Assembly (NCBI RefSeq): GCF_000422885.1 | Contig: NZ_AUGX01000009.1 | Span: 124,001 to 188,000 of the forward strand | Source: Ottowia thiooxydans DSM 14619 | GTDB lineage: Bacteria > Pseudomonadota > Gammaproteobacteria > Burkholderiales > Burkholderiaceae_C | Length of the DNA stretch: 64,000 bases | Direction: 5' to 3' | Part shown: piece after piece, positions 6,695-24,632 of the stretch | Position numbering within the stretch: the stretch's first letter is position 1 | Layout of the letters: each line of letters starts with the position of its first letter | Translations under genes and position numbers: made by a program | Notes under the pieces: model-generated | Database searches by the model: none | What the model was told of the DNA's origin: nothing | What the model saw: only the letters and a program-made list of their open reading frames with translations

Positions 6695-7666
6695 TCAAGA
6701 GGTGCCAGGCGTGCCGTGCAGATGCTCAGGTAGTCCGCTGTGCATCAGCCGTCCGTCGAGCCTGCGCCCGATGATTTTTTCAGCCAACCGCGCAGCGGTG
6801 AGCAGCTTCTCCAGATCCAGGCCGGTTTCGATGCCCATCTCGCGGCAGAGAAAGGCCAGGTCCTCGGTGCAGATGTTGCCAGACGCACCGCCGTGCGCAT
6901 TGCCGCAGAACGGGCAGCCGCCCAAGCCCGCGATCGAGGCATCAAACAAGTCCACGCCCACCTGCAGCGCAGCCAGTGCATTGGCCAGCGCGAGGCCACG
7001 CGTGTCATGCAGATGCAGGCCCACCCGCGCATGTGGAAGGATCTCGCGAACCATCGCTACGCGCCGTTGAATGGCAGCCGGGTTGGCCATGCCCACTGTG
7101 TCAGCCAGGTAAAAATTCTGGAGTTTGAAGCTCTCGCTTTGCTCCAGGCTGGCGACGAACCGCAGCGAGCGGGCTAGTTGGTCTTCACTGATTGCGCCCT
7201 CGATGTGGCAGCCGAAGGCTGTCATCACGTAAGCAGTGTCTATGGGAATTCCCACGTCGCGGTAGCGGTGCACCCAGGCGCGCTGTGCCTGGGCGTGTTC
7301 TTCCATGCCCATGCCGTTGTTGGCGCGACTGAACGCATCTGAGGCGTAGAAGTAAAGGGTACCCGCGAGATCCACCTGGCCCGCAGCGCGAGCACGCTCG
7401 AAACCTTGCGGGTTGAGCCACAGGCCGGTGTACTTCACGCCCTCGCGCTTATTGACGGCCGCGAATAGTTCGGCCGCGTCGGCCATCTGCGGAACGCGCT
7501 TGGCATTGACGAAGGAGGCGACCTGGATCTGCTTCAGCCCCGCGTCCGCGAGGGCTTCTACCAGCGAAGTACGTTCGGCGATGGAGAACCCTGCTGGCTC
7601 AATCTGGAAGCCCTCGCGAGGGCCTTCTTCGTGGATATCGATGCGCTGCGGTAGCTCATGTGTCAT
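6695..7666 (-). CDS. HMG-CoA lyase-family enzyme, divergent (DRE-TIM metallolyase)
   Basis: A 323-residue TIM-barrel lyase of the HMG-CoA lyase family, which cleaves 3-hydroxy-3-substituted glutaryl-CoA-type thioesters to acetyl-CoA and a 3-oxoacid. The metal-binding HLHD (H218, H220) and the loop cysteine (C251 in GLGGCPF) are present. Two features differ from the canonical LiuE at 41633-42541. The N-terminal motif reads GPREGFQIE instead of GPRDGLQNE, placing E18 where the catalytic Asp normally sits. The cysteine loop reads GCPFCGNAHGGASGN, about four residues longer than GCPYAKGATGN, with a second cysteine, C254. It is the last gene of the minus-strand ligase-carboxylase operon, 22 bases after the alpha subunit. 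The differences suggest a different or bulkier substrate; isovalerate-derived HMG-CoA remains possible. Confidence 0.85.
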   Translation of the reverse strand: MTHELPQRIDIHEEGPREGFQIEPAGFSIAERTSLVEALADAGLKQIQVASFVNAKRVPQMADAAELFAAVNKREGVKYTGLWLNPQGFERARAAGQVDLAGTLYFYASDAFSRANNGMGMEEHAQAQRAWVHRYRDVGIPIDTAYVMTAFGCHIEGAISEDQLARSLRFVASLEQSESFKLQNFYLADTVGMANPAAIQRRVAMVREILPHARVGLHLHDTRGLALANALAALQVGVDLFDASIAGLGGCPFCGNAHGGASGNICTEDLAFLCREMGIETGLDLEKLLTAARLAEKIIGRRLDGRLMHSGLPEHLHGTPGTS

Positions 7667-7688
7667 GGTCGATCTCCTTGCTTGGGTT

Positions 7689-9683
7689 CTATGCAGCGGG
7701 ATCGATACGAAACAGGTCCTGGTGTCGCTCCACCCGCGCCTGCGTCGCGCAGCCGACCCAGCTCAGGGTGCCCGCCATAGGCGAGGTGATCGCCATTTCC
7801 ATTTTCATCGACTCGATAGTGGCAAGCCGCTGGCCAGCGGTCACTAGCTGGCCGCTGGCGACGTGGACCCCGACCACGAGCCCCATCATCGGCGCACGCA
7901 CCAGTCCGCTGTGTGCGGCGCTGGCGCCAGCCCGGGCATCGTGGGCCGGGCGGATGTCGAGCACGATTTGCGCTTCGCCGATCAGAGCACTCGCACGCTC
8001 GACGAAGCAATGCGCGCGCAGGCGCAGCGTGAGGCCATCGACGGTAACGGGTTGCCATCCGGACAAGGCCTCGTGTGCGGCGACGCGATGCCGTGTGCCA
8101 TTGACGTCAACAACGAACTCGCCGGGGGCTGGTGACGGCGCGAAGCCGATCTTCCAGTCACCTGAGGATGAAAGCGCCTTGTAAGTCGCCGCTGCCTCGC
8201 TCTCCACACCTCCCCGCGCGATGCGCCACCCGGTTAACGCGGCGTCGTACCAGGCACCTGCCGTTGAGCCTGTCGAAGCGCGTTGCTGCGCGAGCCACAA
8301 CGCCAGCAGCGCCGCCACGTGAGCTGTCGGCTCAGGCTGCGTTCCTCGTCGGGAAAGCCAGCCGTCTATGAACTCCGTTGTGACCCCGTTCGCCTGTACG
8401 TCGGCATCAGCCAGCAGGTCAAGCAGGAAGCCTCGGTTGCTGGTGACGCCCAGCACAGTTGTTTCCGCCAGGCCTTCGCGCAACTGCGCGAGCGCCCCTT
8501 TTCGGGTGTCCGCGTGCGCGATGAGCTTGGCGATCATCGGGTCGTAGTGCGCGCTGATCACGCTCCCGCTGGAGACGCCGGTGTCCGTGCGTAGTCCTGG
8601 CGCCATTTCGAACACCTCGACGCAGCCAGTGCTCGGCAGGAAGTTCTGCGCAGGGTCTTCCGCATACAGGCGTGCCTGCGCAGACACGCCCCGCGGATCT
8701 GCAAGCTCCTCCTGCGAGAACGGCAGGCGGCCTTCGGCCACCGTGCGGATCTGAAGTTCCACCAGGTCCAGCCCGGTCACGGCTTCCGTCACCGGGTGCT
8801 CCACTTGCAACCTTGGATTCACTTCGAGGAACACGGCGCTCTCGCCGGTCACAGCGAACTCGACGGTGCCCAGACCGCGATAGTTGACCGCCTTCCCCAG
8901 TGCCACAGCATGCGCCCATAGTTGCTTACGCAATGACTGAGGCAGGTTCGTCACAGGCGCTTCTTCAACGACCTTCTGGTAGCGCCGCTGCAGGCTGCAT
9001 TCGCGGTCGTACAGGTGTAGTACCTTGCCTGAACCGTCGCCCAGGATTTGTACTTCAATGTGGCGGGGCTTGGAGAGGTAGCGCTCGGCGAGGAGCCGCC
9101 CATCCCCGAATGAAGAGCGGCCCTCGCGGATCGCCGCGGTGATAGCCTCGCGTGCCTGCAGGGCGTCGCGCACCACGCGCATGCCCTTGCCGCCACCGCC
9201 CGCTACGGCCTTGAGGATGTAGGGCGTGGGCAGCAACGAGACTGCTGCAAGCAAGGCCTCGACATCGTCACTCGGTTCATCCAGCCCGCCCGCTGTCGTG
9301 ATGCCCAGTTGCACAGCCAGTTTCTTCGCCGCGGTCTTGTCACCGAACAGTGCAAGCACCTCGGGTGAAGGGCCGATGAAGGCTATACCGAGGTCAGCGC
9401 AACGACGCCCGAATTGCGGGTTTTCCGACAAGAAGCCGTAGCCCGGGTGCACCGCATCCGCGCCCACTCGCTGGGCAGCCGCTAACACGGCTTCGATGTC
9501 GAGGTAGCTCTGGCGGGCCGGGCCCTCACCGACCCAAACCGACTCGCCGATCTCGCGCACATGCAGGCCTTCGGTATCGGCGCTTGAATGGACGGTCGCT
9601 ACACGCAGGCCCATACGACGCACCGTGCGGGCAATGCGGCAGGCGATCTCACCGCGGTTCGCTATGAGGATTTTCTTGAACAT
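7689..9683 (-). CDS. Acyl-CoA carboxylase alpha subunit (biotin carboxylase plus biotin carrier), paralogue
   Basis: A 664-residue subunit that carboxylates biotin using ATP and bicarbonate. Residues 1 to about 450 form the biotin carboxylase domain, with an ANRGEIACR start, glycine-rich loop AGGGGKGM and NPRLQVEHPVTE. The C-terminal biotinyl domain carries K627 in ESMKMEM, where the liu copy has EAMKMEH. It lies 21 bases downstream of its beta subunit and 22 bases before the lyase gene. It resembles methylcrotonyl-CoA carboxylase alpha (3-methylcrotonyl-CoA to 3-methylglutaconyl-CoA) but is clearly distinct from LiuD in this window. A REP-like half element at 8261-8280 lies inside the coding sequence, in the linker between domains. 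Substrate: a beta,beta-disubstituted enoyl-CoA is likely, identity unknown. Confidence 0.87.
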   Translation of the reverse strand: MFKKILIANRGEIACRIARTVRRMGLRVATVHSSADTEGLHVREIGESVWVGEGPARQSYLDIEAVLAAAQRVGADAVHPGYGFLSENPQFGRRCADLGIAFIGPSPEVLALFGDKTAAKKLAVQLGITTAGGLDEPSDDVEALLAAVSLLPTPYILKAVAGGGGKGMRVVRDALQAREAITAAIREGRSSFGDGRLLAERYLSKPRHIEVQILGDGSGKVLHLYDRECSLQRRYQKVVEEAPVTNLPQSLRKQLWAHAVALGKAVNYRGLGTVEFAVTGESAVFLEVNPRLQVEHPVTEAVTGLDLVELQIRTVAEGRLPFSQEELADPRGVSAQARLYAEDPAQNFLPSTGCVEVFEMAPGLRTDTGVSSGSVISAHYDPMIAKLIAHADTRKGALAQLREGLAETTVLGVTSNRGFLLDLLADADVQANGVTTEFIDGWLSRRGTQPEPTAHVAALLALWLAQQRASTGSTAGAWYDAALTGWRIARGGVESEAAATYKALSSSGDWKIGFAPSPAPGEFVVDVNGTRHRVAAHEALSGWQPVTVDGLTLRLRAHCFVERASALIGEAQIVLDIRPAHDARAGASAAHSGLVRAPMMGLVVGVHVASGQLVTAGQRLATIESMKMEMAITSPMAGTLSWVGCATQARVERHQDLFRIDPAA
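8261..8280. repeat. REP-like half element inside the carboxylase alpha gene
   Basis: The 20 bases ending GAGCCTGTCGAAGCG closely resemble one arm of the hairpin at 6551-6610 (TGAGCTTGTCGAAGC). They are translated in frame on the minus strand as part of an ASTGST-type stretch near residue 470, in the linker between the biotin carboxylase and biotinyl domains. No second arm is seen nearby, so it may be a decayed insertion or chance similarity. Confidence 0.5.
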
Positions 9684-9704
9684 GGTTATGGCTGAGTTTC
9701 AGGG

Positions 9705-11315
9705 TCACATGCGAAAGACACCGAAGTGTGTCTCGGGCGTCGGAACGCGAGAGGCGATGTCCAGCAGCAGTGTGAGCGTCTCGCGCGTCTCAGCCGGGTC
9801 CAAGATGCCATCTACCCACAACTGGCGAGCGAAGTTGCGCGCGGCAGCGAAGGTTTCGTAATGCTGGCGAATGGGCGCCTTGAAGGCATCCTCCTCATCA
9901 GCGGTCCAGGTTTCGCCGGCCTTAAGGTTCTGGCGCTTGACCAGCGCGAGCGTCGTCGCCGCCTGGTCCGGTCCCATGATGGCGGCCCTGGCGTTGGGCC
10001 ACATGAACATCGCGTTCGGCTGAAATGCGCGGCCGCACATGGCAAGATAGCCCGCGCCATACGCGCCGCCGGTGATGATGGTGAACTTCGGGACACGGGC
10101 CGAGCTCATCGCGGTGATGAATTTCGCACCCGCCTTGGAGATGCCGCCTTGTTCGGCTTCGCGGCCAACCATGAAGCCGGCCACATCGGAGAGGAACAGC
10201 AATGGCACGTTGCGCTTGCAGCACAGGTCGATGAAGTGCGTAGCCTTGGCAGCGCTTTCGGTGAACAGCACGCCGTTGCTAGCCAGCACGCCGACCTGCC
10301 AGCCACCGATGCGGGCGAAGCCGGTGATAAGTGTGTCGCCGAACTCGGCCTTGAATTCTCCGAGGTCCCCAGCGTCCAGGAGGCACTTGAGCAATTCGCG
10401 CATCGGTGTGGGCTTGCGCGTGTCGCGGTTGACGATGCCGTAGATGTCGGTCGGGGGGCGCGAAGGCGCAACCACCGGCACGCGATCTCGCAGGCAAGGC
10501 GGCATAGCAGGCAACTCCCCTACGAGGCGCCGCGCGATGGCGATGGCCTGTCCGTCGTCGTCGGCGATGTGGTCCGTCACGCCGCTCACGCTGCTGTGCA
10601 TGTCCGCGCCACCCAGCTGTTCCGGATCGACCCGCTCGCCGGTAGCTGCTTGGACGAGCTGGGTGCCTGCCAGGAACATGAAGCCCTTGGCCCGCACGAT
10701 CACGATTTCGTCGCACAGCGCCGGGATGTAGGCGCCACCCGCGGTGCAGGCCCCCAGCACGACCGCAATCTGAGCGATGCCTTCGGACGACATGCCCACC
10801 TGGTGGTGGAATATGCTGCCGAAGAGGCCCTCGTCTGGGAAGATGTTGGCCTGATCCGGCAGGAAAGCACCGCCGCTGTCCACTAGCGTGATGCACGGTA
10901 GGCGATGTTGGCGAGCGAAGCGCTGCGCACGTACATGTTTTTTGCACGTCATGCCGAAATAGGTGCCGCCCTTCACCGTGGGGTCGTTGGCGATCACCAT
11001 GCAGGCGCGGCCCTGCACGAGACCCACGCCGGTAACAATGCCCGCACCCGGCGCGACGCCTTCATACAGGCCTTCGCCGGCCAGCTCGCCGATCTCGAGA
11101 AAGGGCGATCCCGGATCGAGCAAGATGGCGATGCGCTCGCGCACCAGTAGCCGGCCTCGTTGAATGTGCTTGTCACGAGTGGCCTGGGGGCCCCCGAGCC
11201 AGGCAGCGTGACGCGCGACGTGCAAGCTGGCCAGCAGTTCGCGGTAGGCCGCTTCGTTGGCGGTGCGTTCCTCGGCGTCTGAGAGCGCCTTGCTGGGTGT
11301 GGTCATGTCATTCAT
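9705..11315 (-). CDS. Acyl-CoA carboxylase beta subunit (carboxyltransferase), paralogue
   Basis: A 536-residue carboxyltransferase that moves the carboxyl group from biotin to an enoyl-CoA. N- and C-terminal crotonase-like halves are visible, with the oxyanion loops LGACTAGGAYIPA (about 200) and GGAYGAGYLAMCGRAF (about 415), and the FGVFRM C-terminus shared with methylcrotonyl-CoA carboxylase beta subunits. It starts within the last four bases of the PaaK-like ligase gene and is followed by the biotin-bearing alpha subunit, so the holoenzyme is encoded by adjacent genes. A second, canonical beta subunit (liuB) lies at 32776-34383. Family members include methylcrotonyl- and geranyl-CoA carboxylases, so a larger branched substrate cannot be excluded. 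Confidence 0.87.
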   Translation of the reverse strand: MNDMTTPSKALSDAEERTANEAAYRELLASLHVARHAAWLGGPQATRDKHIQRGRLLVRERIAILLDPGSPFLEIGELAGEGLYEGVAPGAGIVTGVGLVQGRACMVIANDPTVKGGTYFGMTCKKHVRAQRFARQHRLPCITLVDSGGAFLPDQANIFPDEGLFGSIFHHQVGMSSEGIAQIAVVLGACTAGGAYIPALCDEIVIVRAKGFMFLAGTQLVQAATGERVDPEQLGGADMHSSVSGVTDHIADDDGQAIAIARRLVGELPAMPPCLRDRVPVVAPSRPPTDIYGIVNRDTRKPTPMRELLKCLLDAGDLGEFKAEFGDTLITGFARIGGWQVGVLASNGVLFTESAAKATHFIDLCCKRNVPLLFLSDVAGFMVGREAEQGGISKAGAKFITAMSSARVPKFTIITGGAYGAGYLAMCGRAFQPNAMFMWPNARAAIMGPDQAATTLALVKRQNLKAGETWTADEEDAFKAPIRQHYETFAAARNFARQLWVDGILDPAETRETLTLLLDIASRVPTPETHFGVFRM

Positions 11316-12670
11316 GCGTTGAAATCCGGGACCTTGCGCAACGTGAGGGCGACCTTTTGTGCGCCTGGCGCGTCAAAGAAGCCATGGCGAACCATGCGAA
11401 CCTCGGCTTTTACCGCCAGCGCGTTGCGCACCCGTGCCTCTACGTTCAGTGCGGTGGCGGCGTCGTCGGATGCAGCGGCGCCAGCAGCGCGTTCCACCAG
11501 CAGCTGCAGGTTGCGTTGCGTGGTGTGGCCTTCGAAGTCTGCCAGTACGCGCATTACGCCGCCCACGGTTGGTTTCATCGACGAGACCACGTCCTGCACA
11601 GCCGAGGGGAAGAGATTCACCCCCCGCACTATCAGCATGTCGTCAGTGCGGCCGAAGCAGCGGATAGCTGGCGTGGTGCGGCCACCCGGCCCGCCCATGG
11701 CGGTGACAGTCACATGGTCACCGGAACGGAAGCGCAACACGGGCGAGGCCTGGCGCTGTAGAGAGCTGTAGACCAGCTCGCCGGTCGCCCCTTCTTTCCA
11801 CTCGATGGGTTCTGCGGTTTCCGGGTCGATCAGCTCGGCCAGGATGAAGTCTGGCGCGACGAAGTACATGCCGCGCTGGTCGTCGGCCTCGGCCCAGTAG
11901 ACACAGCCGAGGTCCGTGCCGCCCATCACCTCACAGCATATGGCACCCCAGTGCTCCTCGAGCCCCTGTCGGATTGCGGGGATGCCCCCACCCGGCTCGC
12001 CGCCAACCACCAGACGTTTCACGCCAATGTCGGTAGCCCTCCTGCCAATCAACTCTGGCGCCACGCTCGCCATGTACAGCAGGAAGTTGGGGGTGCCGAC
12101 GATGCAGCGCGGGCGCGCATCGCGCGCGGCGACCAACAGCCGGTCTACGCCGCCATCCGCCCCGATGGGCAGGTCCACCGCCCCGATCTGGGTGACGCCC
12201 TGGTAGATCGGCACGCCGCCAACGAAGCCTTTGCTCATCGAGAATGCGTGCAGAACCCTATCTCGCGGGCGGATGCCGCAGGCGTAGAGGCCCCGCGCCG
12301 TCATCTCGGTCCAGTGATCGCGGTCCTCGCGCGTGAGGCCCACATAGGCCGGGCTGCCGGTCGTCCCGGAGGAGGCTTGCACCTGCACGATGTCGGCTTC
12401 GGGCGCCGCGCGGTGCAGACCGAGCAGGGGTGCCGCCTTGAGGCTGTCACGCAATTCCTGCTTGGTGGTGAAGGGAATGTGTTGCAAATCTGCCAAGCTG
12501 CGGACGCCGCCTTTGGTGATGCCTGCGTCCACGAGCTTGTGCTGGTAGAAGGCCGAATGCGCCAAGAGATACGTGAGCTGGGTTTGCAGCCGCTGTATCT
12601 GCATCGCCTGGATTTCGTGCCAGGGTTGGGATTCCACCGTGCTGAACGGCGCGGCTATGGCTTGCGTCAT
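11312..12670 (-). CDS. Phenylacetate--CoA ligase-family (PaaK-like) acyl-CoA ligase
   Basis: A 452-residue AMP-forming ligase with the P-loop motif SSGTTGSP (residues 100-107) and the general layout of phenylacetate-CoA ligases. It makes an acyl-CoA from a free acid with ATP. It is the first gene of the operon ligase, carboxylase beta, carboxylase alpha, lyase, and its stop overlaps the next start (ATGA). Leucine breakdown needs no ligase, because its acyl-CoA arises from an oxoacid dehydrogenase, so this gene argues that the operon handles an imported free acid. PaaK relatives prefer arylacetates; a cycloalkylacetate or isovalerate are both possible here. It is read divergently from the dehydrogenase/transporter operon. 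Confidence 0.85.
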   Translation of the reverse strand: MTQAIAAPFSTVESQPWHEIQAMQIQRLQTQLTYLLAHSAFYQHKLVDAGITKGGVRSLADLQHIPFTTKQELRDSLKAAPLLGLHRAAPEADIVQVQASSGTTGSPAYVGLTREDRDHWTEMTARGLYACGIRPRDRVLHAFSMSKGFVGGVPIYQGVTQIGAVDLPIGADGGVDRLLVAARDARPRCIVGTPNFLLYMASVAPELIGRRATDIGVKRLVVGGEPGGGIPAIRQGLEEHWGAICCEVMGGTDLGCVYWAEADDQRGMYFVAPDFILAELIDPETAEPIEWKEGATGELVYSSLQRQASPVLRFRSGDHVTVTAMGGPGGRTTPAIRCFGRTDDMLIVRGVNLFPSAVQDVVSSMKPTVGGVMRVLADFEGHTTQRNLQLLVERAAGAAASDDAATALNVEARVRNALAVKAEVRMVRHGFFDAPGAQKVALTLRKVPDFNA

Positions 12671-12897: not shown

Positions 12898-12921
12898 ATA
12901 TAGGCAATACATTGCCTATAT
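12898..12921. promoter_or_regulatory. Perfect 11-bp inverted repeat, candidate operator
   Basis: ATATAGGCAAT and its exact reverse complement are separated by two bases. The palindrome sits in the divergent spacer between the ligase and dehydrogenase operons. Length and symmetry fit a dimeric regulator; I cannot say which one binds. Confidence 0.55.
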
Positions 12922-13122: not shown

Positions 13123-14295
13123 ATGAGACAAGAACGAGCCAGTGTTGCAAGTGCTTTGCACGAAGAACCGCATGAAGATTTGCGCGGTGCGGTGCGCCGC
13201 TTCGCCGCAGCCGAGATCGCGCCGCTCGCGAAGAAGATCGACCGCGACGACTGGTTTGCGCGCGAGCTCTGGCCGAGGCTCGGTGCCCTGGGCGTGCTCG
13301 GGCCCACGGTGTCTGAGGCTGATGGCGGTGCCGGGCTTGGTTATGCGGAACACGTCGTGATCGCTGAGGAAATCTCGCGGGCCTCTGGCTCGGTTGGCAT
13401 CTCCTACATCGCGCACTCCAACCTGTGCGTGAACCAGATCCAGCTCCATGGCACAGACGCGCAGAAGGCGCGCTACCTGCCTCCCTTATTGAGTGGCGAG
13501 GCCGTAGGCGCTCTTGCGATGAGCGAGGCCGGCGCCGGCTCCGACGTCATTTCCATGAAGCTCAAGGCGCGCCGCGATGGCGATGCCTACATCCTGGACG
13601 GTGCCAAGCTCTGGACCACCAACGGCTGGTACGCAGACACCTTTGTGGTGTATGCCAAGACCGAACCTGGCGCCGGCAAGGCGGGTATCACCGCCTTCAT
13701 CGTCGAGCGAAATACGACCGGGTTCGACACACGCCAGCGTGTGGACAAGCTGGGCATGCGTGGCTCGGGTACCTGCGAGTTGGTGTTCTCTGGCTGCCGG
13801 GTGCCGGCGGCTAATGTGCTGGGCGAGTTGAACGGAGGCGTGCGCGTGTTGATGCGGGGGCTGGACTATGAGCGGCTGATCGCGGCATCCGCCTGCGTCG
13901 GGCTCATGCAGGCGGCGCTGGACATCGTAATGCCTTACGTGACCGAGCGACGCCAGTTTGGTCAGCCCATTGGAGAGTTCCAACTGATCCAGGCCAAGCT
14001 TGCGGACATGTTCACGCGCCTGGGTGCCAGCCGTGCGCACCTATATGCGATGGCAGCCCGCGCAGATCTCGGCTATTCGCTGCGCAAGGAGGCGGCTAGC
14101 GTGATCCTGCTGGCGGCCGAATCGGCCACGCAGTCGGCGATGGATGCGATCCAATGCCTTGGAGGCAATGGCTACACCAACGACTACGACGCGGGCAGAC
14201 TGCTGCGCGATGCCAAGCTGTATGAGATCGGCGCGGGCACTTCTGAAATTCGCCGTATGTTGATTGGGCGCGAGATGATGAGGGAGGCGGCATGA
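13123..14295 (+). CDS. Isovaleryl-CoA dehydrogenase-like acyl-CoA dehydrogenase
   Basis: This 390-residue flavoenzyme oxidises an acyl-CoA to the 2-enoyl-CoA, passing electrons to electron-transfer flavoprotein. It carries the hallmark of isovaleryl-CoA dehydrogenases: the catalytic glutamate in the LDYERL helix (E250), and [12 protein letters not shown] near the C-terminus where other acyl-CoA dehydrogenases have their Glu. This arrangement suits acyl chains branched at the beta carbon. The start at 13123 follows a GAGGAGAC site; an in-frame ATG at 13069 lacks one. The stop overlaps the next ABC ATPase start (ATGA). No other isovaleryl-CoA dehydrogenase is in the window, so it could serve leucine breakdown or the paralogous pathway beside it. 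Confidence 0.88.
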
Positions 14296-16998: not shown

Positions 16999-17001
16999 GC
17001 C

Positions 17002-17886
17002 ATGGACGTCATGTACTTCCTTGAACTCGCGATCAACGGCGGCCTCGCCGGCATGATGTATTCGCTGGTCGCGATGGGCATCGTACTGATCTACAAGTCA
17101 TCTTCGGTGCCCAACCTGGCGCAGGGCGCGTTGGTGATGCTGGGCGCGTATGTGGTGCTGATGTTCAACGGCTTCGGCATACCGATCTGGGCGGCGATCC
17201 CGCTCACCATGGCCGCCATGTTCCTGGTTGGCTTGGGGATCGAGCGCGTGGCGTTGCGGCGCCTGGCGGGCCGGCCAATCGTGATGATCCTCATGATGAC
17301 GCTGGGAATCGACATCTTCCTGCGCGCGTCAGCATTGACGTTCTGGGGTGGCAGCGGGCGCAACATGTCGCTGGGCATCAGCGACGCGCCACTCTTCCTG
17401 GGCACGCTGCTGGTCAACCGGGCGTATGCAGTGGGCGCGGCAGTGACTTTGGTGCTGTTCGTGGTCTTCATGCTGTTCTTCCGCACACGGCGCGGCCTGG
17501 TGTTGCGGGCGATCTCGGATGACTACACGGCATCTTGGTCCGTGGGCATCTCGGTGGAACGCGGCGTGGGACTTTCCTGGGCGCTGTCGTCGCTGGCCGC
17601 CACCACGGCCGGCGTACTGTGGGGTTCAGTGCAAACGGTGGACCAATCGCTGTCAATGCTGCTTCTCAAGGGGCTTACGGTCGCCGTGCTCGGTGGCATG
17701 GACAGCCTGGGTGGCGCGCTGTTGGCCGGGTTGCTCCTGGGTATCTTGGAGAACGTGGCGTCGGGGTACCTTGATCCGCTACTGGGCGGTGGCACCCGCG
17801 ACCTGGTAGTGGCCGCGGTGCTGATACTCACCGTATTGATCCGCCCGCATGGCCTGTTTGGCCGGCATGACATTGAGAGGATCTAG
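17002..17886 (+). CDS. Liv-type ABC transporter permease (LivH-like)
   Basis: A 294-residue inner-membrane protein with about eight hydrophobic segments and the LivH-type N-terminus (GLAGMMYSLVAMGIVLIYK) and LAQGALVMLGAY loop. It forms one half of the transmembrane channel. It begins three bases after the synthetase stop and is followed three bases later by the LivM-like gene. Confidence 0.92.
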   Translation: MDVMYFLELAINGGLAGMMYSLVAMGIVLIYKSSSVPNLAQGALVMLGAYVVLMFNGFGIPIWAAIPLTMAAMFLVGLGIERVALRRLAGRPIVMILMMTLGIDIFLRASALTFWGGSGRNMSLGISDAPLFLGTLLVNRAYAVGAAVTLVLFVVFMLFFRTRRGLVLRAISDDYTASWSVGISVERGVGLSWALSSLAATTAGVLWGSVQTVDQSLSMLLLKGLTVAVLGGMDSLGGALLAGLLLGILENVASGYLDPLLGGGTRDLVVAAVLILTVLIRPHGLFGRHDIERI

Positions 17887-17889
17887 CGA

Positions 17890-18963
17890 ATGTTCTACCG
17901 CCAGGCAGGCATATTCCACACGAACTACGCGGCCGACCGCACGCTGTTCCCGATCCCCTTCGAGCGCTGGGCGGTTGTTGCGCTTCTGTTGTTCGCCGTC
18001 GCAGCACCGTGGCTTCTCAGCTCACTGCAGCTCACCAGCTATGTGCGGCCCTGGCTGATCTGGACGGCGGCGGCTCTCGGACTCAACCTCATCCTCGGCT
18101 GGGCCGGGCAGTTCCACTTTGGTTACGCCGCCATCATGGGCATCGGTGCCTATGCCTCGGTGCATGCCGCGCGGCGCGGAGTACCGTGGGAGATCGCGGT
18201 GATCCTGGGTGGGGCTGCAGCCGCTGCGATTGGCTCGGTGTTCGCCTTTGCCGCATTGCGCGTGAAAGGTCTGTACCTTGCGCTCTCCACGCTGGCCATG
18301 CAGTTCATCATGGACTGGGTTATCTCTCATGTGCCTGCCATTAGCGGCGGCGTGTCTGCCACGTTGCAGGCGCCTGCCATGAAGTTGCTGGGACAAGCCA
18401 TCACCTCAGATGCTGGTAAGTACTACGTAGTGCTGGCCTGGACGCTCTTCGTCACGCTGTTCATGCTGAACCTCCGGCGTAGTGCATTGGGCCGCGCGTT
18501 GGTGGCTGTGCGTGAGAAGGACTTCGCTGCAGCTGTCATTGGCGTACAGAGCTTCTACTACAAGCTCGTGGCGTTTGCGGCTTCGGCCTTCATTGGTGGC
18601 GTGAGCGGGTCCATGCTGATCTTCGGCTTCTACCAGGCCGTGACGCCTGAGCAATTCGCGGTGAACGTGTCGATCGAACTTTTGGCTATGGTGATCGTCG
18701 GGGGCCTGGGCAGCATCATTGGCAGTTACTTCGGCGCGGCCTTCATCCTGTTGCTGCCGGGCCAGATGAATGCGTTCATTGCCTGGCTGGCGCAGCTCAT
18801 GGGCATCAACATTGGCGTGGAGGCGCTGGCGCACATTCCTCACATGGTCTATGGCGCAACCATCATCATCGTGTTGCTGATCGAGCCAATGGGCCTGGGC
18901 AAGCTTTATGGCAACGTGCGCAGCTACCTGATGCTGTGGCCATTCGGCTATGCCAAGAAATAG
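17890..18963 (+). CDS. Liv-type ABC transporter permease (LivM-like)
   Basis: A 357-residue polytopic membrane protein with the LivM core (LNLILGWAGQFHFGYAAIMGIGAYA) and the cytoplasmic coupling region VREKDFAAAVIGV. It pairs with the LivH-like permease. The short soluble N-terminal segment before the first membrane helix is usual for this subgroup. The gene is tightly packed between the LivH- and LivF-like genes. Confidence 0.92.
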   Translation: MFYRQAGIFHTNYAADRTLFPIPFERWAVVALLLFAVAAPWLLSSLQLTSYVRPWLIWTAAALGLNLILGWAGQFHFGYAAIMGIGAYASVHAARRGVPWEIAVILGGAAAAAIGSVFAFAALRVKGLYLALSTLAMQFIMDWVISHVPAISGGVSATLQAPAMKLLGQAITSDAGKYYVVLAWTLFVTLFMLNLRRSALGRALVAVREKDFAAAVIGVQSFYYKLVAFAASAFIGGVSGSMLIFGFYQAVTPEQFAVNVSIELLAMVIVGGLGSIIGSYFGAAFILLLPGQMNAFIAWLAQLMGINIGVEALAHIPHMVYGATIIIVLLIEPMGLGKLYGNVRSYLMLWPFGYAKK

Positions 18964-18972
18964 GGCTGACGC

Positions 18973-19788
18973 ATGAGTAGCACTGTGAATCCCGAACACA
19001 TTCTTCGTGTTAACAACATCGAGGTCATCTACGACCATGTGGCACTTGCCATCAAGGGCGTGTCGCTGGATGTACCTCTGGGCGGCATGGTGGCGCTGCT
19101 CGGCGCCAACGGCGCGGGCAAGAGCACCACGCTCAAGGCCATCAGCGGCCTGCTCAAACCAGAGCGCGGACTTGTCACGCGGGGCGACCTGCACTACATG
19201 GGTGGTGACATTCAGCGCCTGGCGCCACAGCAACGCGTGCGGTTGGGCATCGTGCAGGTGCTGGAAGGCCGTCGTGTATTCGAGCACCTCACAGCCGACG
19301 AAAACCTCACAGCTGCATCTTCCGTCGCGGGCGGTAACCGGGCAGAGACCGAACGCAAGCGTGAGATGGTTTATGGCTATTTTCCGCGTCTTAAGCAGCG
19401 GCGCGACGCGCAGTCAGGTTTTCTCTCCGGAGGAGAGCAGCAGATGCTGGCGATTGGCCGCGCGTTGATGACAGGCCCCAAGCTGTTGATGCTCGACGAA
19501 CCGAGCCTGGGCCTCGCACCATTCCTCGTTGCAGAGATTTTTGACATTGTGCGGCGCATCAACCAGCAGGAAGGCCTGTCGGTCCTGTTGGTCGAGCAGA
19601 ACGCGCTGGCCGCGTTGGAGGTGGTCTCGCACGGCTATTTGATGGAGAACGGCCGAATCGTCATGCACGACAGCGCCGAGACCATGAAGCGTAACCCCGA
19701 CATTCAGGAGTTTTACCTGGGTGGTGCGGGCGGGCGGGATTTTCGCGAGATCAAACACTACAGCCGGCGCAAGCGCTGGCTGAGTTGA
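18973..19788 (+). CDS. Liv-type ABC transporter ATP-binding protein (LivF-like)
   Basis: A 271-residue ATPase with Walker A GANGAGKST, signature LSGGEQQ and Walker B LLMLDEPS. It ends in a basic tail (about 250-271, KHYSRRKRWLS), typical of the synthetase-linked Liv subgroup rather than true leucine importers. It pairs with the LivG-like ATPase to drive the LivH/LivM-like permease. Confidence 0.92.
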   Translation: MSSTVNPEHILRVNNIEVIYDHVALAIKGVSLDVPLGGMVALLGANGAGKSTTLKAISGLLKPERGLVTRGDLHYMGGDIQRLAPQQRVRLGIVQVLEGRRVFEHLTADENLTAASSVAGGNRAETERKREMVYGYFPRLKQRRDAQSGFLSGGEQQMLAIGRALMTGPKLLMLDEPSLGLAPFLVAEIFDIVRRINQQEGLSVLLVEQNALAALEVVSHGYLMENGRIVMHDSAETMKRNPDIQEFYLGGAGGRDFREIKHYSRRKRWLS

Positions 19789-19879
19789 GAAGCGCAGCAG
19801 TAGTTTCAGCAACACGTTGCCGCTAGCGCGCGTACTTGGCGGCTGCAACGGATCATTCACCGTACGCAGGAGACGAGAC

Positions 19880-21130
19880 ATGAAGCGAATGTTGTTATCA
19901 GGGGTCGCGGCGTTCGCGCTGGCCCTGTGCGGTGTGCAGGCTCATGCGCAGGCGGGCAACTCCGTCAAGTTCGGCCTGTGCTACGACCTGAGCAAGGCCT
20001 ACACCTTCGTTACGCCGCAGATCGTGCAGGCGGCCAAGGACTACGCGGCCATTCTCAACGCCAAGGGCGGCATCGAGGGCCACCCGATCGAGATCATCGC
20101 CCAGGATCACGGTAATGAGCCGCAGCGCGGGCTCGAGTGTTACGAGAAGCTGAAGCGCGAAGGCGTGATCATGTTTGACATGCTGTCTACGCCAGTCTCG
20201 CGTGCGGTGCTGCCGCGCGTCATGGAAGACAAGAACATCTTGCTGCAATCCTTTGTGGGTCGCGGCGATGCGGTGGACGGCGAGGTATTCAAGCAAATCT
20301 TCCCCATTGGCCCAACGTACTGGGGGCAGGTGGCTAACGACATTGCCTACATCAAGACGCAGCACAAGGGTAACCTCAAGGGCGTGAAGATCGGCTTCAT
20401 CTACCCCGACTACTCGTTCGGGCAGGAGCCCATCCCGATCCTGAAGACGCTGGCGGCCAAGGAAGGCTTCGAGCTGAGCCTATTCCCCAACCCTATGCCT
20501 GGGCGAGACCAAGCGGCGGTGTGGACGCAGATTCGCCGTTTCGATCCGGCCTGGGTGATCAGCTGGAACCTCTCAGCCATGCATGTTGTCGCTGCCAAGG
20601 AAATGAAACGCAATGGCATCCCGATGGAAAAACTCATCGTGGTGAACTGGCTCAACGAAGTGGATATCAACAATATCGGCGCGGCCGAAGCCAAAGGCCT
20701 GAAGCGCGGCACTAACGTAGTGGGTGGCAAGAACCACGCCGTGATCCAGCAGATCATTAAGGACCTGTATGGCACCGGCAAGGGTAATGGCGACGTGAAG
20801 AACCTGGACGACATTTACTACAACACGGGCCTTGCCATGTATTCGGTGATGTTCGAAGCCACGCGCGCGGCCATCAAGAAGGATGGCTGGCCACTTAACG
20901 GCGCGAAGATCAAGGCCGGCATGGAGAGCCTGCGCAACTTCGACGCCAATGGCCTGATGTCGCCCGTGACAGTGACCGCCAAGGACCACGGCGGCGGTGG
21001 CAAGACACGCATCGACATGTGGGACGGTACCAAGTGGGTACCGCAGTCAGACTGGATTTCGGCCTATGCGGAAGAAGTGGACAAGGTGGTGAAGGAGCAG
21101 TCCGCGGAGTTCGCCAAGACTGGTAAGTAA
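19880..21130 (+). CDS. Liv-type ABC transporter substrate-binding protein
   Basis: A 416-residue periplasmic binding protein of the LivK/type 1 family. The signal peptide ends near AHAQA, and the mature start is SVKFGLCYDLSKAYTF. An AGGAGAC ribosome site precedes ATG 19880; the in-frame ATG at 19817 lacks one and would spoil the signal peptide. It ends the operon dehydrogenase, LivG, synthetase, LivH, LivM, LivF, receptor. It likely recognises an aromatic or alicyclic acid given the bad genes just downstream, though that is inferred from position alone. Confidence 0.9.
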   Translation: MKRMLLSGVAAFALALCGVQAHAQAGNSVKFGLCYDLSKAYTFVTPQIVQAAKDYAAILNAKGGIEGHPIEIIAQDHGNEPQRGLECYEKLKREGVIMFDMLSTPVSRAVLPRVMEDKNILLQSFVGRGDAVDGEVFKQIFPIGPTYWGQVANDIAYIKTQHKGNLKGVKIGFIYPDYSFGQEPIPILKTLAAKEGFELSLFPNPMPGRDQAAVWTQIRRFDPAWVISWNLSAMHVVAAKEMKRNGIPMEKLIVVNWLNEVDINNIGAAEAKGLKRGTNVVGGKNHAVIQQIIKDLYGTGKGNGDVKNLDDIYYNTGLAMYSVMFEATRAAIKKDGWPLNGAKIKAGMESLRNFDANGLMSPVTVTAKDHGGGGKTRIDMWDGTKWVPQSDWISAYAEEVDKVVKEQSAEFAKTGK

Positions 21131-21196: not shown

Positions 21197-21247
21197 GGGA
21201 TCCACGTTGGCGTGAAGTCCACGCTCCTTGAGGGAGCGCTGGATCCC
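21197..21247. terminator. Hairpin structure between convergent genes
   Basis: GGGATCCA (21197-21204) and TGGATCCC (21240-21247) pair over a loop that contains a second hairpin, CGCTCC/GGAGCG (21222-21238). It lies between the convergent receptor and marR-family genes. There is no clear T-run, so termination is only suggested. Confidence 0.4.
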
Positions 21248-21249
21248 GG

Positions 21250-21762
21250 TCAGGTTTTGGATGACAGCTCGTCGCCGTCTTCTCCCTCGACATCCGGATT
21301 GTCCAGCTTCTGCATGTTGTCCAGCATCTTCAGCAGATAGTGCACGGTGTGGACCATGTCGTTGACTGAGAAACCCTCCAACGCCTGCTCGTAGTAGTCG
21401 TGGATCTTGGGCAGAGCGCGACGCTCCCACACGTGGCTGCCCGCGGGTGTCAGGCGGATGAGGCGTGAGCGGCCGTCTTGCGGATCGGGGGCGCTCTCGA
21501 CGCGGCCGTCGCGCTCAAGGCGCCCCACGACACCGGACAGGTTCTGGCGGCTGACCATGAGATATCGGGCGAGATCGCCCAGCTTCATGCCATTAGGTGT
21601 CTGCGGCCGCGAGAGCGCGCCGAGCACAGCCCATTGCTGCGTCGTGAGACCGTCTGCCTCGATCGCGCGAGATCCCGTTTTATGCAGCATGTTGGCACAT
21701 TGATAAAGTCGGAAGAACAACCGATTGGCAATGTCCAAGCGTGTTTCTGAGGAAGTGTTCAT
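21250..21762 (-). CDS. badR: MarR-family regulator, BadR-like
   Basis: A 170-residue MarR regulator with the winged helix at about residues 35-110 (LTTQQWAVLGAL, LARYLMVSRQNLSGVVGRLERDGRV, DGRSRLIRLT). It is read divergently from badH. In Rhodopseudomonas palustris the MarR protein BadR represses the badHI-ali genes and responds to an alicyclic CoA intermediate, and the gene neighbourhood here is the same. An acidic tail (EGEDGDE) closes the protein. The assignment as BadR rests on context plus family; the exact ligand is not visible. The start codon is chosen to give the normal family length. Confidence 0.8.
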   Translation of the reverse strand: MNTSSETRLDIANRLFFRLYQCANMLHKTGSRAIEADGLTTQQWAVLGALSRPQTPNGMKLGDLARYLMVSRQNLSGVVGRLERDGRVESAPDPQDGRSRLIRLTPAGSHVWERRALPKIHDYYEQALEGFSVNDMVHTVHYLLKMLDNMQKLDNPDVEGEDGDELSSKT

Positions 21763-21822
21763 AGGGTAATCCGTAGTATGTGGACGAGATTCGAGATCTT
21801 GCGTCGCCCGTGCATGAAGCCT

Positions 21823-21840
21823 AATATATGAATATATATT
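21823..21840. promoter_or_regulatory. AT-rich inverted repeat between badR and badH
   Basis: AATATAT and ATATATT are separated by four bases (GAAT), 33 bases upstream of badH. Placement between the divergent regulator and target genes, plus the symmetry, fits a MarR-family operator overlapping the promoter. Confidence 0.55.
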
Positions 21841-21873
21841 GACATAAATATCAAAGAGACGAAAGGTTGAAAA

Positions 21874-22641
21874 ATGACACGATTGGCTGGCAAAACGGCA
21901 GTGATCACCGGCGGTGGCGGCGGCATCGGCGGCGCAACGTGTTTGCGCTTTGCCCAAGAGGGCGCGCGCGTTGCGGTGTTCGATCGTGATCTGGCGTCTG
22001 CGCAACGTACAGCGCAGCAGGTCATTGACGCAGGAGGGCAGGCACAGGCCTTCGAGTGTGACATCACCGTGCGAGCGGCTGTCGACGCGGCGGTGGCAAA
22101 GGCCATAGCTGAACTTGGCCCGATCGACATCCTCGTCAACAACGCGGGATGGGACGTGTTCATGCCCTTTACGAAAACACAGCCTGAGCAGTGGGACAAG
22201 CTGATCGACATCAACCTGAAGGGCGCGCTGCACATGCATCACGCCGTGCTGCCCGGCATGATCGAGCGCAAGGCAGGACGCATCGTCAATATCGCGTCCG
22301 ACGCGGCGCGCGTGGGCTCCTCGGGCGAGGCGGTATATGCGGCCTGCAAGGGCGGCATCGTGTCATTCTCCAAGACGCTGGCGCGCGAGCATTCTCGCCA
22401 CAACATCACGGTGAACGTCGTGTGCCCCGGCCCCACGGACACGGCGCTCTTCGCTGATTACAAGCTTGGCGCGGGTAACCCCGAGAAGCTGGAAGAAGCC
22501 TTCCGCCGTTCGATCCCGCTCGGTCGCATTGGCCAGCCGAGCGACCTGCCGGGCGCCATCCTTTTCTTCGCCAGCGACGACGCCGCTTATGTGACGGGGC
22601 AGGTGCTCAGCGTCTCGGGCGGACTCACGATGGCGGGCTGA
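21874..22641 (+). CDS. badH: 2-hydroxycyclohexanecarboxyl-CoA dehydrogenase (short-chain dehydrogenase)
   Basis: This 255-residue SDR oxidises 2-hydroxycyclohexanecarboxyl-CoA to 2-oxocyclohexanecarboxyl-CoA with NAD+. The cofactor motif TGGGGGIGG (12-20), NNAG (89-92), N114 and the catalytic S142-Y155-K159 are all present. The region from NNAGWDVF through SDAARVGSSGEAVYAACKGG strongly resembles R. palustris BadH as I remember it. It sits directly before badI, and the divergent MarR gene completes the known bad arrangement. A GAAAGG-like site precedes the ATG. Confidence 0.9.
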   Translation: MTRLAGKTAVITGGGGGIGGATCLRFAQEGARVAVFDRDLASAQRTAQQVIDAGGQAQAFECDITVRAAVDAAVAKAIAELGPIDILVNNAGWDVFMPFTKTQPEQWDKLIDINLKGALHMHHAVLPGMIERKAGRIVNIASDAARVGSSGEAVYAACKGGIVSFSKTLAREHSRHNITVNVVCPGPTDTALFADYKLGAGNPEKLEEAFRRSIPLGRIGQPSDLPGAILFFASDDAAYVTGQVLSVSGGLTMAG

Positions 22642-22677
22642 GCGGCCTTCCACACGCCAACACAAGGAGACCATCCC

Positions 22678-23460
22678 ATGAAATTCGAAGACATCCTCTA
22701 CGAAGTGCGCAACGGCGTCGCGTGGATCACCATCAATCGCCCGGACAAGATGAACGCCTTCCGTGGCACGACCTGCGACGAGCTCATCAAGGCACTGCAC
22801 AAGGCGGGCTATGACCGAGAGGTGGGCGCCATAGTGCTGGCCGGCGCCGGAGACCGCGCGTTCTGCACGGGCGGCGATCAGTCGGCGCACGACGGCAACT
22901 ACGATGGGCGCGGCACCATCGGCCTGCCGATGGAAGAGTTGCACCAGGCCATCCGAGACGTGCCCAAGCCAGTGATCGCGCGCGTGCAGGGCTATGCGAT
23001 TGGCGGTGGCAACGTGCTGTGCACCATCTGCGATCTCACTATCTGTTCGGAAAAGGCCATCTTCGGCCAGGCCGGCCCGAAGATGGGCTCGGTCGATCCT
23101 GGTTACGGTACGGCGCTGCTGGCGCGCGTGGTCGGCGAGAAGAAGGCGCGCGAGATGTGGTATCTGTGCCGGCGCTACAGCGGCAAGGAAGCTGTGGAGA
23201 TGGGCCTGGCCAACGTGTGTGTGCCACACGAGCAACTGGACGCCGAGGTGCAGAAATGGGCCGAGGAAATCTGCGAGCGCAGCCCCACGGCGATCGCCAT
23301 TGCCAAGCGCAGCTTCAACATGGACACCGCACATCAGGCCGGCATTGCGGGCATGGGCATGTACGCGCTCAAGCTCTACTACGAAACCGATGAATCGCGC
23401 GAAGGCGTGAAGGCGCTACAGGAAAAGCGCAAGCCCGATTTCCGCAAGTACGCAAAGTAG
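22678..23460 (+). CDS. badI: 2-ketocyclohexanecarboxyl-CoA hydrolase (ring cleavage)
   Basis: A 260-residue crotonase-family enzyme that hydrolytically opens 2-oxocyclohexanecarboxyl-CoA to pimeloyl-CoA. Its sequence is strikingly close to R. palustris BadI in memory, for example CTGGDQSAHDGNYDGRGT (63-80) and GPKMGSVDPGYGTALLARVV, the latter containing the active-site Asp/Tyr region shared with MenB-type enzymes. No crotonase-type glutamate pair is present, as expected for a hydrolase of 2-oxoacyl-CoA. It lies between badH and aliB with an AAGGAGA ribosome site. This is the firmest functional anchor in the block. Confidence 0.93.
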   Translation: MKFEDILYEVRNGVAWITINRPDKMNAFRGTTCDELIKALHKAGYDREVGAIVLAGAGDRAFCTGGDQSAHDGNYDGRGTIGLPMEELHQAIRDVPKPVIARVQGYAIGGGNVLCTICDLTICSEKAIFGQAGPKMGSVDPGYGTALLARVVGEKKAREMWYLCRRYSGKEAVEMGLANVCVPHEQLDAEVQKWAEEICERSPTAIAIAKRSFNMDTAHQAGIAGMGMYALKLYYETDESREGVKALQEKRKPDFRKYAK

Positions 23461-23465
23461 GTGCG

Positions 23466-24632
23466 ATGCAGACCCCGTACAACAACCCCTACATCGACGC
23501 CGACCTGGCTGCGTTGGGCGAGCAGGCGCGTCGCTTCGCCACGGGCCGCGTGGCGCCGGGTTTTCAGGAGCGCGACAGAACGCGCGTGCTCGACCGTACT
23601 CTGATGCGCGAGATGGGCGCCTTGGGCTTCATCGCGCCCGAGCTACCGGAAGAGGTGGGCGGGCTTGGCACCGGAACGCTGGCCGCTGGCGTGATCCATG
23701 AGGAGATCGCGCGCGCTGACCTAAGCCTTTCCTATATCAACCTGCTGGCTTCGCTGAACGGGCAAATCCTGGCGAACTACGGCCAACCCGAGGTGGCGAA
23801 ACCCTGGTTGCAGCGGCTCACCAAGGGCGAGGCCTTGATCGCCATCGCGCTCACCGAACCTTCGGGCGGCTCCGACGCGGCCAACCTGCGTCTGCGCATG
23901 GAGCGCACTGCAGACGGCTATGTCATCAACGGCGAGAAGACATCCATCTCAGCGGCTGACCAGGCCGACGCAATCATCGTGTTTGGCCGCACCGGCAGCG
24001 TGGAGTCTGGCGCGCACGGCGTCACGGCCGTGCTGGTGCCAGGTGACGCACAGGGTCTCACGCGCAGCCGCTTCGATTGCCACGGCCAACGTGCTATTGG
24101 CCGAGGGTCGCTTTTCTTCGAGAACGTGCGTGTGCCGCTGGATCACCGATTGGGCGACGAGAACCGTGGCTTTGTGCAGGTGATGCAGGGCTTTGATTTT
24201 TCGCGCGCGCTTATCGGCCTGCAGGTGCTGGCTGTCGCGAGCGTCGCGCTCGAAGAAACCTGGGCCTATACGGCGCAGAGGGAGGCATTCGGTAAGCCGC
24301 TGTCGGCCTTTCAGGGCGTTTCGCATCCATTGGCGGACTTCGAAACACAGGTAAATGCTGCGCGCCTGCTTTGCCTGCAAGCACTCTGGCTCAAGGACCA
24401 GGGGGCGCCTCACAGTGCCGAGGCGGCGATGTGCAAATGGTGGGCACCCAAGCTCGCCTACGACTGCATCCACCAGTGCCTGTTGAGTTTTGGCCACGCC
24501 GGTTACGACCGCGGGCCAATGGAGCAAAGATTGCGCGATGTGCTGGGCTTTCAGATCGGCGATGGAACGGCGCAGATCATGAAAACAATCATTGCGAGGG
24601 CGAGAGCAGGGCGCGGGGCTGTGCCGGCTTGA
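23466..24632 (+). CDS. aliB: Cyclohexanecarboxyl-CoA dehydrogenase (acyl-CoA dehydrogenase)
   Basis: A 388-residue acyl-CoA dehydrogenase five bases after badI. It should oxidise cyclohexanecarboxyl-CoA to cyclohex-1-ene-1-carboxyl-CoA. The C-terminal active-site segment reads IGDGTAQIMK, with D366 where most family members have the catalytic Glu; alicyclic-CoA dehydrogenases are known to differ here. Position after badHI matches R. palustris. The cluster stops here: I find no aliA-like ligase and no badK-like hydratase next to it, so activation and hydration must be supplied by other genes. Confidence 0.85.
   Translation: MQTPYNNPYIDADLAALGEQARRFATGRVAPGFQERDRTRVLDRTLMREMGALGFIAPELPEEVGGLGTGTLAAGVIHEEIARADLSLSYINLLASLNGQILANYGQPEVAKPWLQRLTKGEALIAIALTEPSGGSDAANLRLRMERTADGYVINGEKTSISAADQADAIIVFGRTGSVESGAHGVTAVLVPGDAQGLTRSRFDCHGQRAIGRGSLFFENVRVPLDHRLGDENRGFVQVMQGFDFSRALIGLQVLAVASVALEETWAYTAQREAFGKPLSAFQGVSHPLADFETQVNAARLLCLQALWLKDQGAPHSAEAAMCKWWAPKLAYDCIHQCLLSFGHAGYDRGPMEQRLRDVLGFQIGDGTAQIMKTIIARARAGRGAVPA

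Follow-up and report, generated by a model that had tools for sequence, protein, structure and literature searches.

The question raised by this stretch of the Ottowia thiooxydans DSM 14619 genome (64,000 nucleotides of contig NZ_AUGX01000009.1, hereafter the window; the genome comprises 7.05 Mb in 78 contigs) is why enzymes of the leucine-degradation type should be encoded directly beside the badR, badH, badI and aliB genes. In leucine breakdown, isovaleryl-CoA dehydrogenase (IVD), methylcrotonyl-CoA carboxylase (MCC), a hydratase and HMG-CoA lyase remove acetyl-CoA from a beta-branched chain; BadI opens 2-oxocyclohexanecarboxyl-CoA to pimeloyl-CoA. We propose, with a probability of about 0.57, that the block is dedicated to the degradation of an alicyclic acetic acid; the most likely substrate is cyclohexylacetate itself or a homologue, of the even-chain naphthenic-acid type, with a substituted ring. 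Cycloalkyl acids with an even-numbered side chain are a class of naphthenic acids found in crude oil and oil-sands water; what finally remains of them is an acid of the cyclohexylacetate type, whose beta carbon is a ring atom and which therefore cannot be shortened by ordinary beta-oxidation. The available excerpt of a 2015 genome paper describes the cyclohexylacetate pathway of one Cupriavidus strain as still largely unknown (PMC4547698).

The preliminary description of the window had placed a ligase, an IVD-type dehydrogenase, a carboxylase, an HMG-CoA-lyase-like enzyme and a Liv importer in two divergent operons by badR/badHI/aliB, and this arrangement is confirmed, all named genes being open frames at the positions listed in Table 1. 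The minus-strand operon has the order PaaKx-MCCBx-MCCAx-HMGLx, its genes joined by a 4-base overlap or by gaps of about 20 bases. The plus-strand operon (13156-21130) carries IVDx, LivG, an AMP-forming ligase (P0007), LivH, LivM, LivF and a Liv-type binding protein, and downstream of this cassette lie BadR (minus strand) and BadH-BadI-AliB (21874-24632). A TetR gene (5844-6446), the P0007 ligase within the Liv cassette and a canonical liu set in the same window are additions to that description. BadH, BadI and AliB all exceed their NCBIfam equivalog cut-offs (TIGR03206, 448.5 versus 431.2 bits; TIGR03210, 541 versus 467.6 bits; TIGR03207, 700.3 versus 575.35 bits, respectively), and together with the MarR regulator they make up a bad-ali set. 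The block proteins are more divergent in part: P0004 is PaaK-like, yet its 211.7 bits fall far below the PaaK cut-off of 646.3, and its paralogues in the genome are all at most 38% identical; P0001 only just reaches the cut-off of the HMG-CoA lyase subfamily (NCBIfam PRK05692, 246 versus 246 bits); and the top solved relatives of P0005 are isovaleryl-CoA dehydrogenases (514.7 bits). None of the block genes was assigned as aliA or badK, the orthology of P0007 and of the genome's many crotonases being untried, and no AtuA-like lyase pair or intramolecular CoA transferase was found among the scanned block genes (the whole genome was not searched).

One answer to the question would be that the block is a second leucine or isovalerate set, with accessory IVD, MCC and HMG-CoA lyase and a branched-chain importer, standing beside badHI by chance. 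Its enzymes do belong to leucine-pathway families, MCCBx is nearer to the MCC type (609.5 bits with AccD1, 566.4 bits with the Pseudomonas aeruginosa MCC) than to geranyl-CoA carboxylase (GCC; 389.8 bits), and the window's canonical liu genes are 10 kb away from badI. The same separate liuB/C/D/E genes, at 32.7-42.5 kb, nevertheless make leucine an unlikely main role, since that function is already encoded; the genome also has a second IVD (C4:299355), 62% identical to IVDx. A search for MCCBx orthologues among 199 relatives, at a 60% identity threshold, returned only the genome itself and four others (G028, G025, G083 and G130), the remaining matches being at most 55% identical. In a quick maximum-likelihood tree, a single branch (SH-aLRT 99) splits 31 rows of the MCCBx clade from 14 LiuB rows, so that MCCBx falls outside the LiuB clade. 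Nor does the block unite IVD, both MCC subunits (alpha and beta), hydratase and HMG-CoA lyase as in the Liu pathway, a hydratase gene being found outside it.

The substrate pocket of the carboxylase differs as well. The loop FPD[RK][DE]HFGR, present in 25/25 canonical LiuB sequences, is replaced in the MCCBx clade by FPDxGx(F/G)G(S/T), which occurs in 32 of the 33 loci where the stretch was read (of 35 loci, L163 and L164 are unreadable; the one exception, L154, was read at the wrong place and shows the motif in a separate reading). According to the accessible part of Jurado et al. (PMC4673880), which of the two substrates is accepted depends on a pocket residue, Phe in MCC and Gly in GCC. The position mapped from that paper is Phe165 in P0003, and the pocket is therefore not GCC-like; Gly occurs there in L072 only, among the clade members read. 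The retained Phe is in keeping with a second leucine set; the replaced loop argues against one. MCCBx as a GCC-type carboxylase was ruled out by the scores nearer to MCC, the kept Phe and a separate GCC-like subunit encoded elsewhere in the genome. In IVDx, the residue that we take to correspond to Leu258 of human IVD is Ala in seven of the eight distinct sequences that could be read (L146 has Val; L153 and L171 are unreadable). The genome's other IVD has Leu there, and IVDx keeps the GAGTS active-site stretch. HMGLx reads PREGFQ in 16 of the 17 rows (L169 has a frameshift), where LiuE and the human enzyme have PRDGLQ; the variant is not unique to the clade, as two other HMGL-like proteins of the genome, L010 and L011 (45-46% identical), have it too. 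The second liu set, the separate carboxylase clade and the remodelled pocket loop, all read from sequence, thus render a role confined to leucine or isovalerate unlikely.

The preliminary description had suggested a survey of the two operons and badHI across genomes; in both a family draw and a wider scan, the neighbourhood is not unique to this genome. Of 399 family genomes drawn evenly, 12 (spanning eight genera) carry the MCCBx clade and 73 carry badI, and all 12 carriers have badI, an overlap with a hypergeometric probability of 6e-10 if the genomes were independent, which they are not. In 6/12 carriers (G000, G083, G204, G304, G376 and G489), no more than 25 kb separates the clade gene from badI. 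As a control, canonical liuB lies this close in only 2 of the 19 relatives with both genes, namely the window genome (G000) and its near-copy G004, which also speaks against the second leucine set; in the same set of relatives the proportion for the MCCBx clade is 2/5 (G000 and G083), and fragmented assemblies weaken both 25-kb counts. All 16 genomes examined individually contain badI; among them, G004 was picked for its synteny, and its contig stops before the carboxylase. The canonical liu genes, about 10 kb from badI in the window, are likewise close in G004; in the remaining 17 relatives that have both, they are not.

The wider scan, of 84,980 genomes by PaaKx alignment, yielded 31 loci, whose gene maps were drawn by best hit. 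The carboxylase adjoins the ligase in 21 of them, and in 14 of these 21 the contig also carries badI (L146, L151, L152, L157, L158, L159, L162, L163, L164, L167, L169, L172, L174 and L175; the badI of L158 is a fragment at a contig edge, and L151 and L152 belong to a single Afipia genome). In L148, L149, L150 (genome G028), L153, L154 and L160, badI is on another contig; the contigs that bear L149 and L160 are 5.4 and 4.0 kb long. Genome-wide, 23 of the 28 genomes searched contain badI. The remaining five are G512 (which has the L158 fragment), G515, G518, G519 and G524 (L171); the contig of G515 ends after the ligase, and G518 and G519 have no carboxylase beside the ligase.

Two builds of the operon can be distinguished. 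The first (type I), with HMGLx, is found in 11 of the 31 loci, in the window, and in G376 and G399. Locus L167 has the order badR-badH-badI-aliB-tetR-paaKx-MCCBx-MCCAx-HMGLx-Lig2, and L163, from an Ideonella metagenome-assembled genome, is similar with the addition of a crotonase, IVDx and a Liv cassette. Lig2, an AMP-forming ligase, follows HMGLx in 7/11 of these loci and also in G376 and G399, and the crotonase CroUp is present in 4/11 (7/31 overall); these are the two functions that the window genome is without. Large operons with an AliB-like dehydrogenase, MCCBx, MCCAx, HMGLx and a LiuB-like/LiuD-like second carboxylase were observed in L070, L127, L128, L129 and L136. In the Gram-positive Brevibacillus fluminis (L168), a BadI-like gene (58%) stands immediately ahead of a PaaK-like ligase gene (45%).

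The second build (type II) occurs in Cycloclasticus-type contigs, six of which (L157, L159, L162, L164, L174 and L175) have both carboxylase and aldolase; in L158, the first 35 aldolase residues are present and the sequence then departs. The order in L175 is aliB-crotonase-badI-hexapeptide protein-pimC-like-pimD-like-MBL, continuing MaoC-type-MaoC-paaKx-MCCBx-MCCAx-thiolase-fold protein-DUF35. Its two pimeloyl-CoA-dehydrogenase-like (Pim-like) proteins, with 463 and 404 bits, do not reach the curated cut-offs. Neither BadH nor HMG-CoA lyase was detected in the Cycloclasticus-type loci at E 1e-3 (loci only; whole genomes were not searched for BadH). In all eight copies, the thiolase-fold protein reads YDCF and has Gln or Asn in place of the nucleophilic Cys, and DUF35 homologues occur in the same eight loci (in L175 the DUF35 domains were identified by Pfam). 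The consulted section of Rolfe et al. (PMC12329534) gives YDCY for the aldolase Sal, YDCF for the proposed aldolase SLP and HDCF for SCP-2 thiolases. The Cycloclasticus-type loci thus encode a predicted retro-aldolase with a motif of the Sal/SLP kind and a DUF35 partner. Like the steroid side-chain retro-aldolases (Sal, and Ltp2 with DUF35), these loci combine such a protein with DUF35 and MaoC-type hydratases; unlike them, the predicted aldolase sits with a carboxylase and BadI, and its substrate is probably not a steroid. An MmgE/PrpD-like gene resembling that of the window was seen near the type II operons L157, L159, L162, L164 and L174 and not near L175, and only in L175 were a metallo-beta-lactamase-fold protein and a small citrate-synthase-like protein identified near the operon.

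No locus combines HMGLx with the aldolase (0/31). The 21 carboxylase loci comprise 11 with HMGLx, seven with the aldolase or its start and three with neither (L149 and L160, which end at a contig edge, and L172). Two unrelated C-C cleaving enzymes therefore pair with the same ligase and carboxylase. That an aldolase stands in for HMG-CoA lyase in the Cycloclasticus-type operons also counts against a second leucine set.

In the alicyclic acetate pathway that we propose, PaaKx (or P0007) would form the CoA ester, and IVDx would desaturate it at the tertiary beta carbon. MCCBx/MCCAx would carboxylate the ring carbon gamma to the thioester to give 2-carboxycyclohexylideneacetyl-CoA, a hydratase would convert this product to a tertiary alcohol, and HMGLx would cleave the alcohol in a retro-aldol reaction to acetyl-CoA and 2-oxocyclohexanecarboxylate. 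Once a ligase had re-activated the latter, BadI would open the ring to pimeloyl-CoA. The crotonase and HMGLx would have their counterparts in Cycloclasticus-type genomes in a MaoC pair and the thiolase-fold aldolase, respectively. The presence of BadI without BadH in type II would make sense if the 2-oxo compound comes from retro-aldol cleavage and not from oxidation. The likely substrate is suggested by the PaaK-like ligase, the IVD-like dehydrogenase and BadI. A leucine-like route to BadI, as put forward in the preliminary description, is in this form partly supported: it fits best, badI is linked, and relatives supply a crotonase or MaoC proteins and in some cases a second ligase. Gene content, conserved linkage and the clade and motif differences are observed; the substrate (cyclohexylacetate) and each enzymatic step are our inference, which is why the support is only partial.

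Like the Liu pathway, the proposed route employs an IVD, a biotin carboxylase, a hydratase and an HMG-CoA lyase in series on a beta-branched acyl-CoA; unlike it, the window operons have another carboxylase clade and loop, altered lyase motifs, a PaaK-like ligase and linkage to badI. The Atu pathway, with its geranyl-CoA carboxylase, applies the same logic to a larger beta-branched substrate; however, MCCBx is closer to MCC and keeps the Phe absent from GCC, and the genome has its own GCC-like subunit. Relatives of badR, badH, badI and aliB, and pimeloyl-CoA as the product of BadI, are shared with the bad-ali pathway of Rhodopseudomonas palustris and Aromatoleum, to which the ligase/carboxylase/lyase module is an addition here, and BadH was not found in the Cycloclasticus-type loci.

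The closest chemistry is that of the anaerobic naphthalene thn operon of N47 and NaphS2. As far as the available portions of PMC12016498 and PMC11659651 go, this operon also involves an IVD-like dehydrogenase, 2-carboxycyclohexylideneacetyl-CoA, a tertiary alcohol, a lyase and pimeloyl-CoA; ThnO, IVD-like and 41% identical to IVD, makes 2-carboxycyclohexylideneacetyl-CoA, and ThnL is both a ring hydrolase on 2-oxocyclohexanecarboxyl-CoA and a hydratase on the enoyl-CoA, the hydratase and lyase data being called unpublished there. The predicted carboxylation product and its hydrate coincide with naphthalene intermediates as given in the excerpt of PMC12016498. In contrast to the proposed route, the same portions derive the ring carboxyl of the thn pathway from cleavage of the first ring and not from a biotin carboxylase, and the thn lyase is AtuA-like. 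By analogy with ThnL, which combines both activities, BadI may double as the missing hydratase in the window genome.

The comparison also brings up a different end to the same pathway, in which the lyase opens the ring directly, as ThnQS does, by C1-C2 cleavage to 3-oxoazeloyl-CoA with thiolysis to pimeloyl-CoA, and BadI acts as a hydratase or serves cyclohexanecarboxylate only. In the thn pathway this reaction has the identical tertiary alcohol as its substrate, and ThnL acts both as a hydratase on the same enoyl-CoA and as a hydrolase on 2-oxocyclohexanecarboxyl-CoA (PMC12016498, available part). The second ligase, absent here, would be unneeded, and a separate hydratase perhaps also. Enzymes of the HMG-CoA lyase family, however, cleave to acetyl-CoA and a beta-keto acid, a second ligase follows HMGLx in seven of the 11 loci, and ThnQS is described as AtuA-like and not HMGL-like. 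Direct ring opening retains a small chance.

A further set of alternatives assigns the carboxylase to something else. Cyclohexylacetate could be degraded by direct lyase cleavage to cyclohexanone and acetyl-CoA, an activity (EC 4.1.3.35) reportedly known from work on cyclohexaneacetate in Arthrobacter, or the ring could be aromatised into the phenylacetate pathway. The cyclohexanone route fits PaaKx, IVDx, a hydratase and a lyase, and two loci with a PaaKx-like ligase, the aldolase and its DUF35 partner but no MCCBx-clade carboxylase (L156 and L173) could be a cyclohexanone-forming version. The link to phenylacetate degradation is put forward as a hypothesis only in the consulted part of a 2026 paper (PMC13188881). 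Neither fate explains the linkage to badI, and the genes of carboxylase and ligase overlap in the window and are adjacent in two-thirds of the scanned loci (21/31); we consider both fates very unlikely. Similarly improbable is a role for carboxylase and lyase downstream of BadI, where alkyl-substituted cyclohexanecarboxylates would have given branched dicarboxylic acids, or a role in the breakdown of acyclic terpenoid acids. Group B clusters, which join an AliB-like dehydrogenase, MCCBx, HMGLx and a second carboxylase, do suggest several branched substrates. On the other hand, ring opening of a 4-alkyl compound should yield 3-alkylglutaryl-CoA, in which the carboxyl group is already there; MCCBx is not of the geranyl type, the separate GCC-like subunit being available in the genome; and the PaaK-like ligase points to an aryl- or cycloalkylacetate.

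Several observations weigh against the alicyclic acetate pathway itself. The badHI-aliB operon is a standard one, in which BadI is already explained by cyclohexanecarboxylate, and 2-oxocyclohexanecarboxylate may possibly decarboxylate spontaneously. The Phe that bars geranyl-CoA from MCC is retained in MCCBx, so its pocket is not obviously larger. The preliminary description had noted that the block lacks a dedicated hydratase, which is correct: the window's methylglutaconyl-type hydratase is liuC (34898), in the separate liu set; moreover, the genome has no clear orthologue of the relatives' crotonase (best match 44%) or second ligase (best match 32%). A second ligase was seen neither in four of the 11 HMGLx loci nor in the Cycloclasticus-type loci, and L172 has neither lyase type beside its carboxylase, though it is not at a contig edge. 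In half of the 12 family carriers, badI is not inside 25 kb (farther off or on another contig), and Bradyrhizobium NAS80.1 (G524, L171) has a full cluster and no badI match in its genome at E 1e-70. As a separate observation, liuC (34898-35686) might fill the hydratase gap in the block.

Pathways that break down beta-branched acyl-CoAs with the help of carboxylation are a known kind, of which the proposed ring-acid route would be a variant; the route is partly supported, and the comparison with other genomes strengthens it. The claim that no pathway of this kind has been described needs qualification: the naphthalene route shares intermediates, to judge from the available part of PMC12016498, whereas entry through a carboxylase was not described in the literature searched. 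Among the open-licence PMC papers listed by searches on cyclohexylacetate/cyclohexaneacetate pathways and on cyclohexanecarboxyl with badI, none has a title or abstract opening that presents a route of this type; subscription work may differ. We give even odds to the broader proposal of an undescribed bacterial pathway for ring acids with a beta branch. It would exist in two versions whose hydratases and lyases come from unrelated families; a biotin carboxylase would add a carboxyl group to the saturated ring, the side chain would then leave as acetyl-CoA, and the ring would reach BadI without BadH, in effect a carboxylase-driven entry to the anaerobic naphthalene intermediates. If true, genes could be named for the cyclohexylacetate-type side-chain step, biotin carboxylases would gain a new use, and the MCCBx loop with PaaKx would be a marker for degraders at polluted sites. 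The question can be tested in named strains: Ramlibacter terrae H242 and Bradyrhizobium sp. AS23.2, for example, carry the cluster.

Table 1. Features of the window discussed in the text, in window coordinates
Feature	Position	Strand	Remarks
TetR-type regulator	5844-6446	+	TetR_C_24 domain; convergent with lyase gene
HMGLx (P0001), HMG-CoA-lyase-like	6695-7666	-	PF00682; PRK05692; PREGFQ and HLHD motifs common to clade
MCCAx (P0002), biotin carboxylase with biotinyl domain	7689-9683	-	Biotin_carb_N/C, CPSase_L_D2, Biotin_lipoyl; ESMKM biotin site visible
MCCBx (P0003), carboxyltransferase subunit	9705-11315	-	Carboxyl_trans 441.9 bits; loop FPDEGLFGS
PaaKx (P0004), PaaK-like acyl-CoA ligase	11312-12670	-	Overlaps MCCBx by 4 bases
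Perfect 24-bp palindrome with CAATACATTG	12898-12921 (CAATACATTG 12905-12914)		Divergent PaaKx/IVDx promoter
IVDx (P0005), isovaleryl-CoA-dehydrogenase-like	13156-14295	+	Open frame starts 13069
LivG-type ATPase	14292-15083	+	
P0007, AMP-forming acyl-CoA ligase within Liv cassette	15070-16998	+	AMP-binding PF00501
LivH-type permease	17002-17886	+	
LivM-type permease	17890-18963	+	
LivF-type ATPase	18973-19788	+	
Liv-type substrate-binding protein	19880-21130	+	Peripla_BP_6
BadR-like MarR regulator	21250-21690	-	MarR domains; start uncertain; related genes near badH in relatives
BadH, 2-hydroxycyclohexanecarboxyl-CoA dehydrogenase	21874-22641	+	TIGR03206 above cut-off
BadI, 2-ketocyclohexanecarboxyl-CoA hydrolase	22678-23460	+	TIGR03210 above cut-off
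AliB, cyclohexanecarboxyl-CoA dehydrogenase	23466-24632	+	TIGR03207 above cut-off
Canonical liu genes	liuB 32692-34383, liuC 34898-35686, liuD 36513-38519, liuE 41633-42541	+	Outside system; internal control

The TetR gene is counted as part of the unit because copies of it, 43-74% identical, adjoin the same operon in relatives: they are present in 10 of the 31 scanned loci (L146, L148, L150-L153, L163, L167, L171 and L172) and also in G376 and G399. Regulation by BadR is suggested by the palindrome in the divergent promoter, no copy of which was conserved in more distant clusters. The letters of CAATACATTG are those of the R. palustris BadR site, the operator sequence being taken from the accessible text of PMC9795900. 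Exact matches to CAATNNATTG in the whole window number two, versus 0.74 expected, and at least two occurred in 15 of 100 shuffles, which is not above chance; no exact BadR-type site was found ahead of the window genome's own badH. Control of the ligase/carboxylase module by BadR through the putative CAATACATTG site is thus suggestive, and the palindrome could equally serve as a TetR operator. The same ten letters as CAATACATTG precede badH in G028 (L102).

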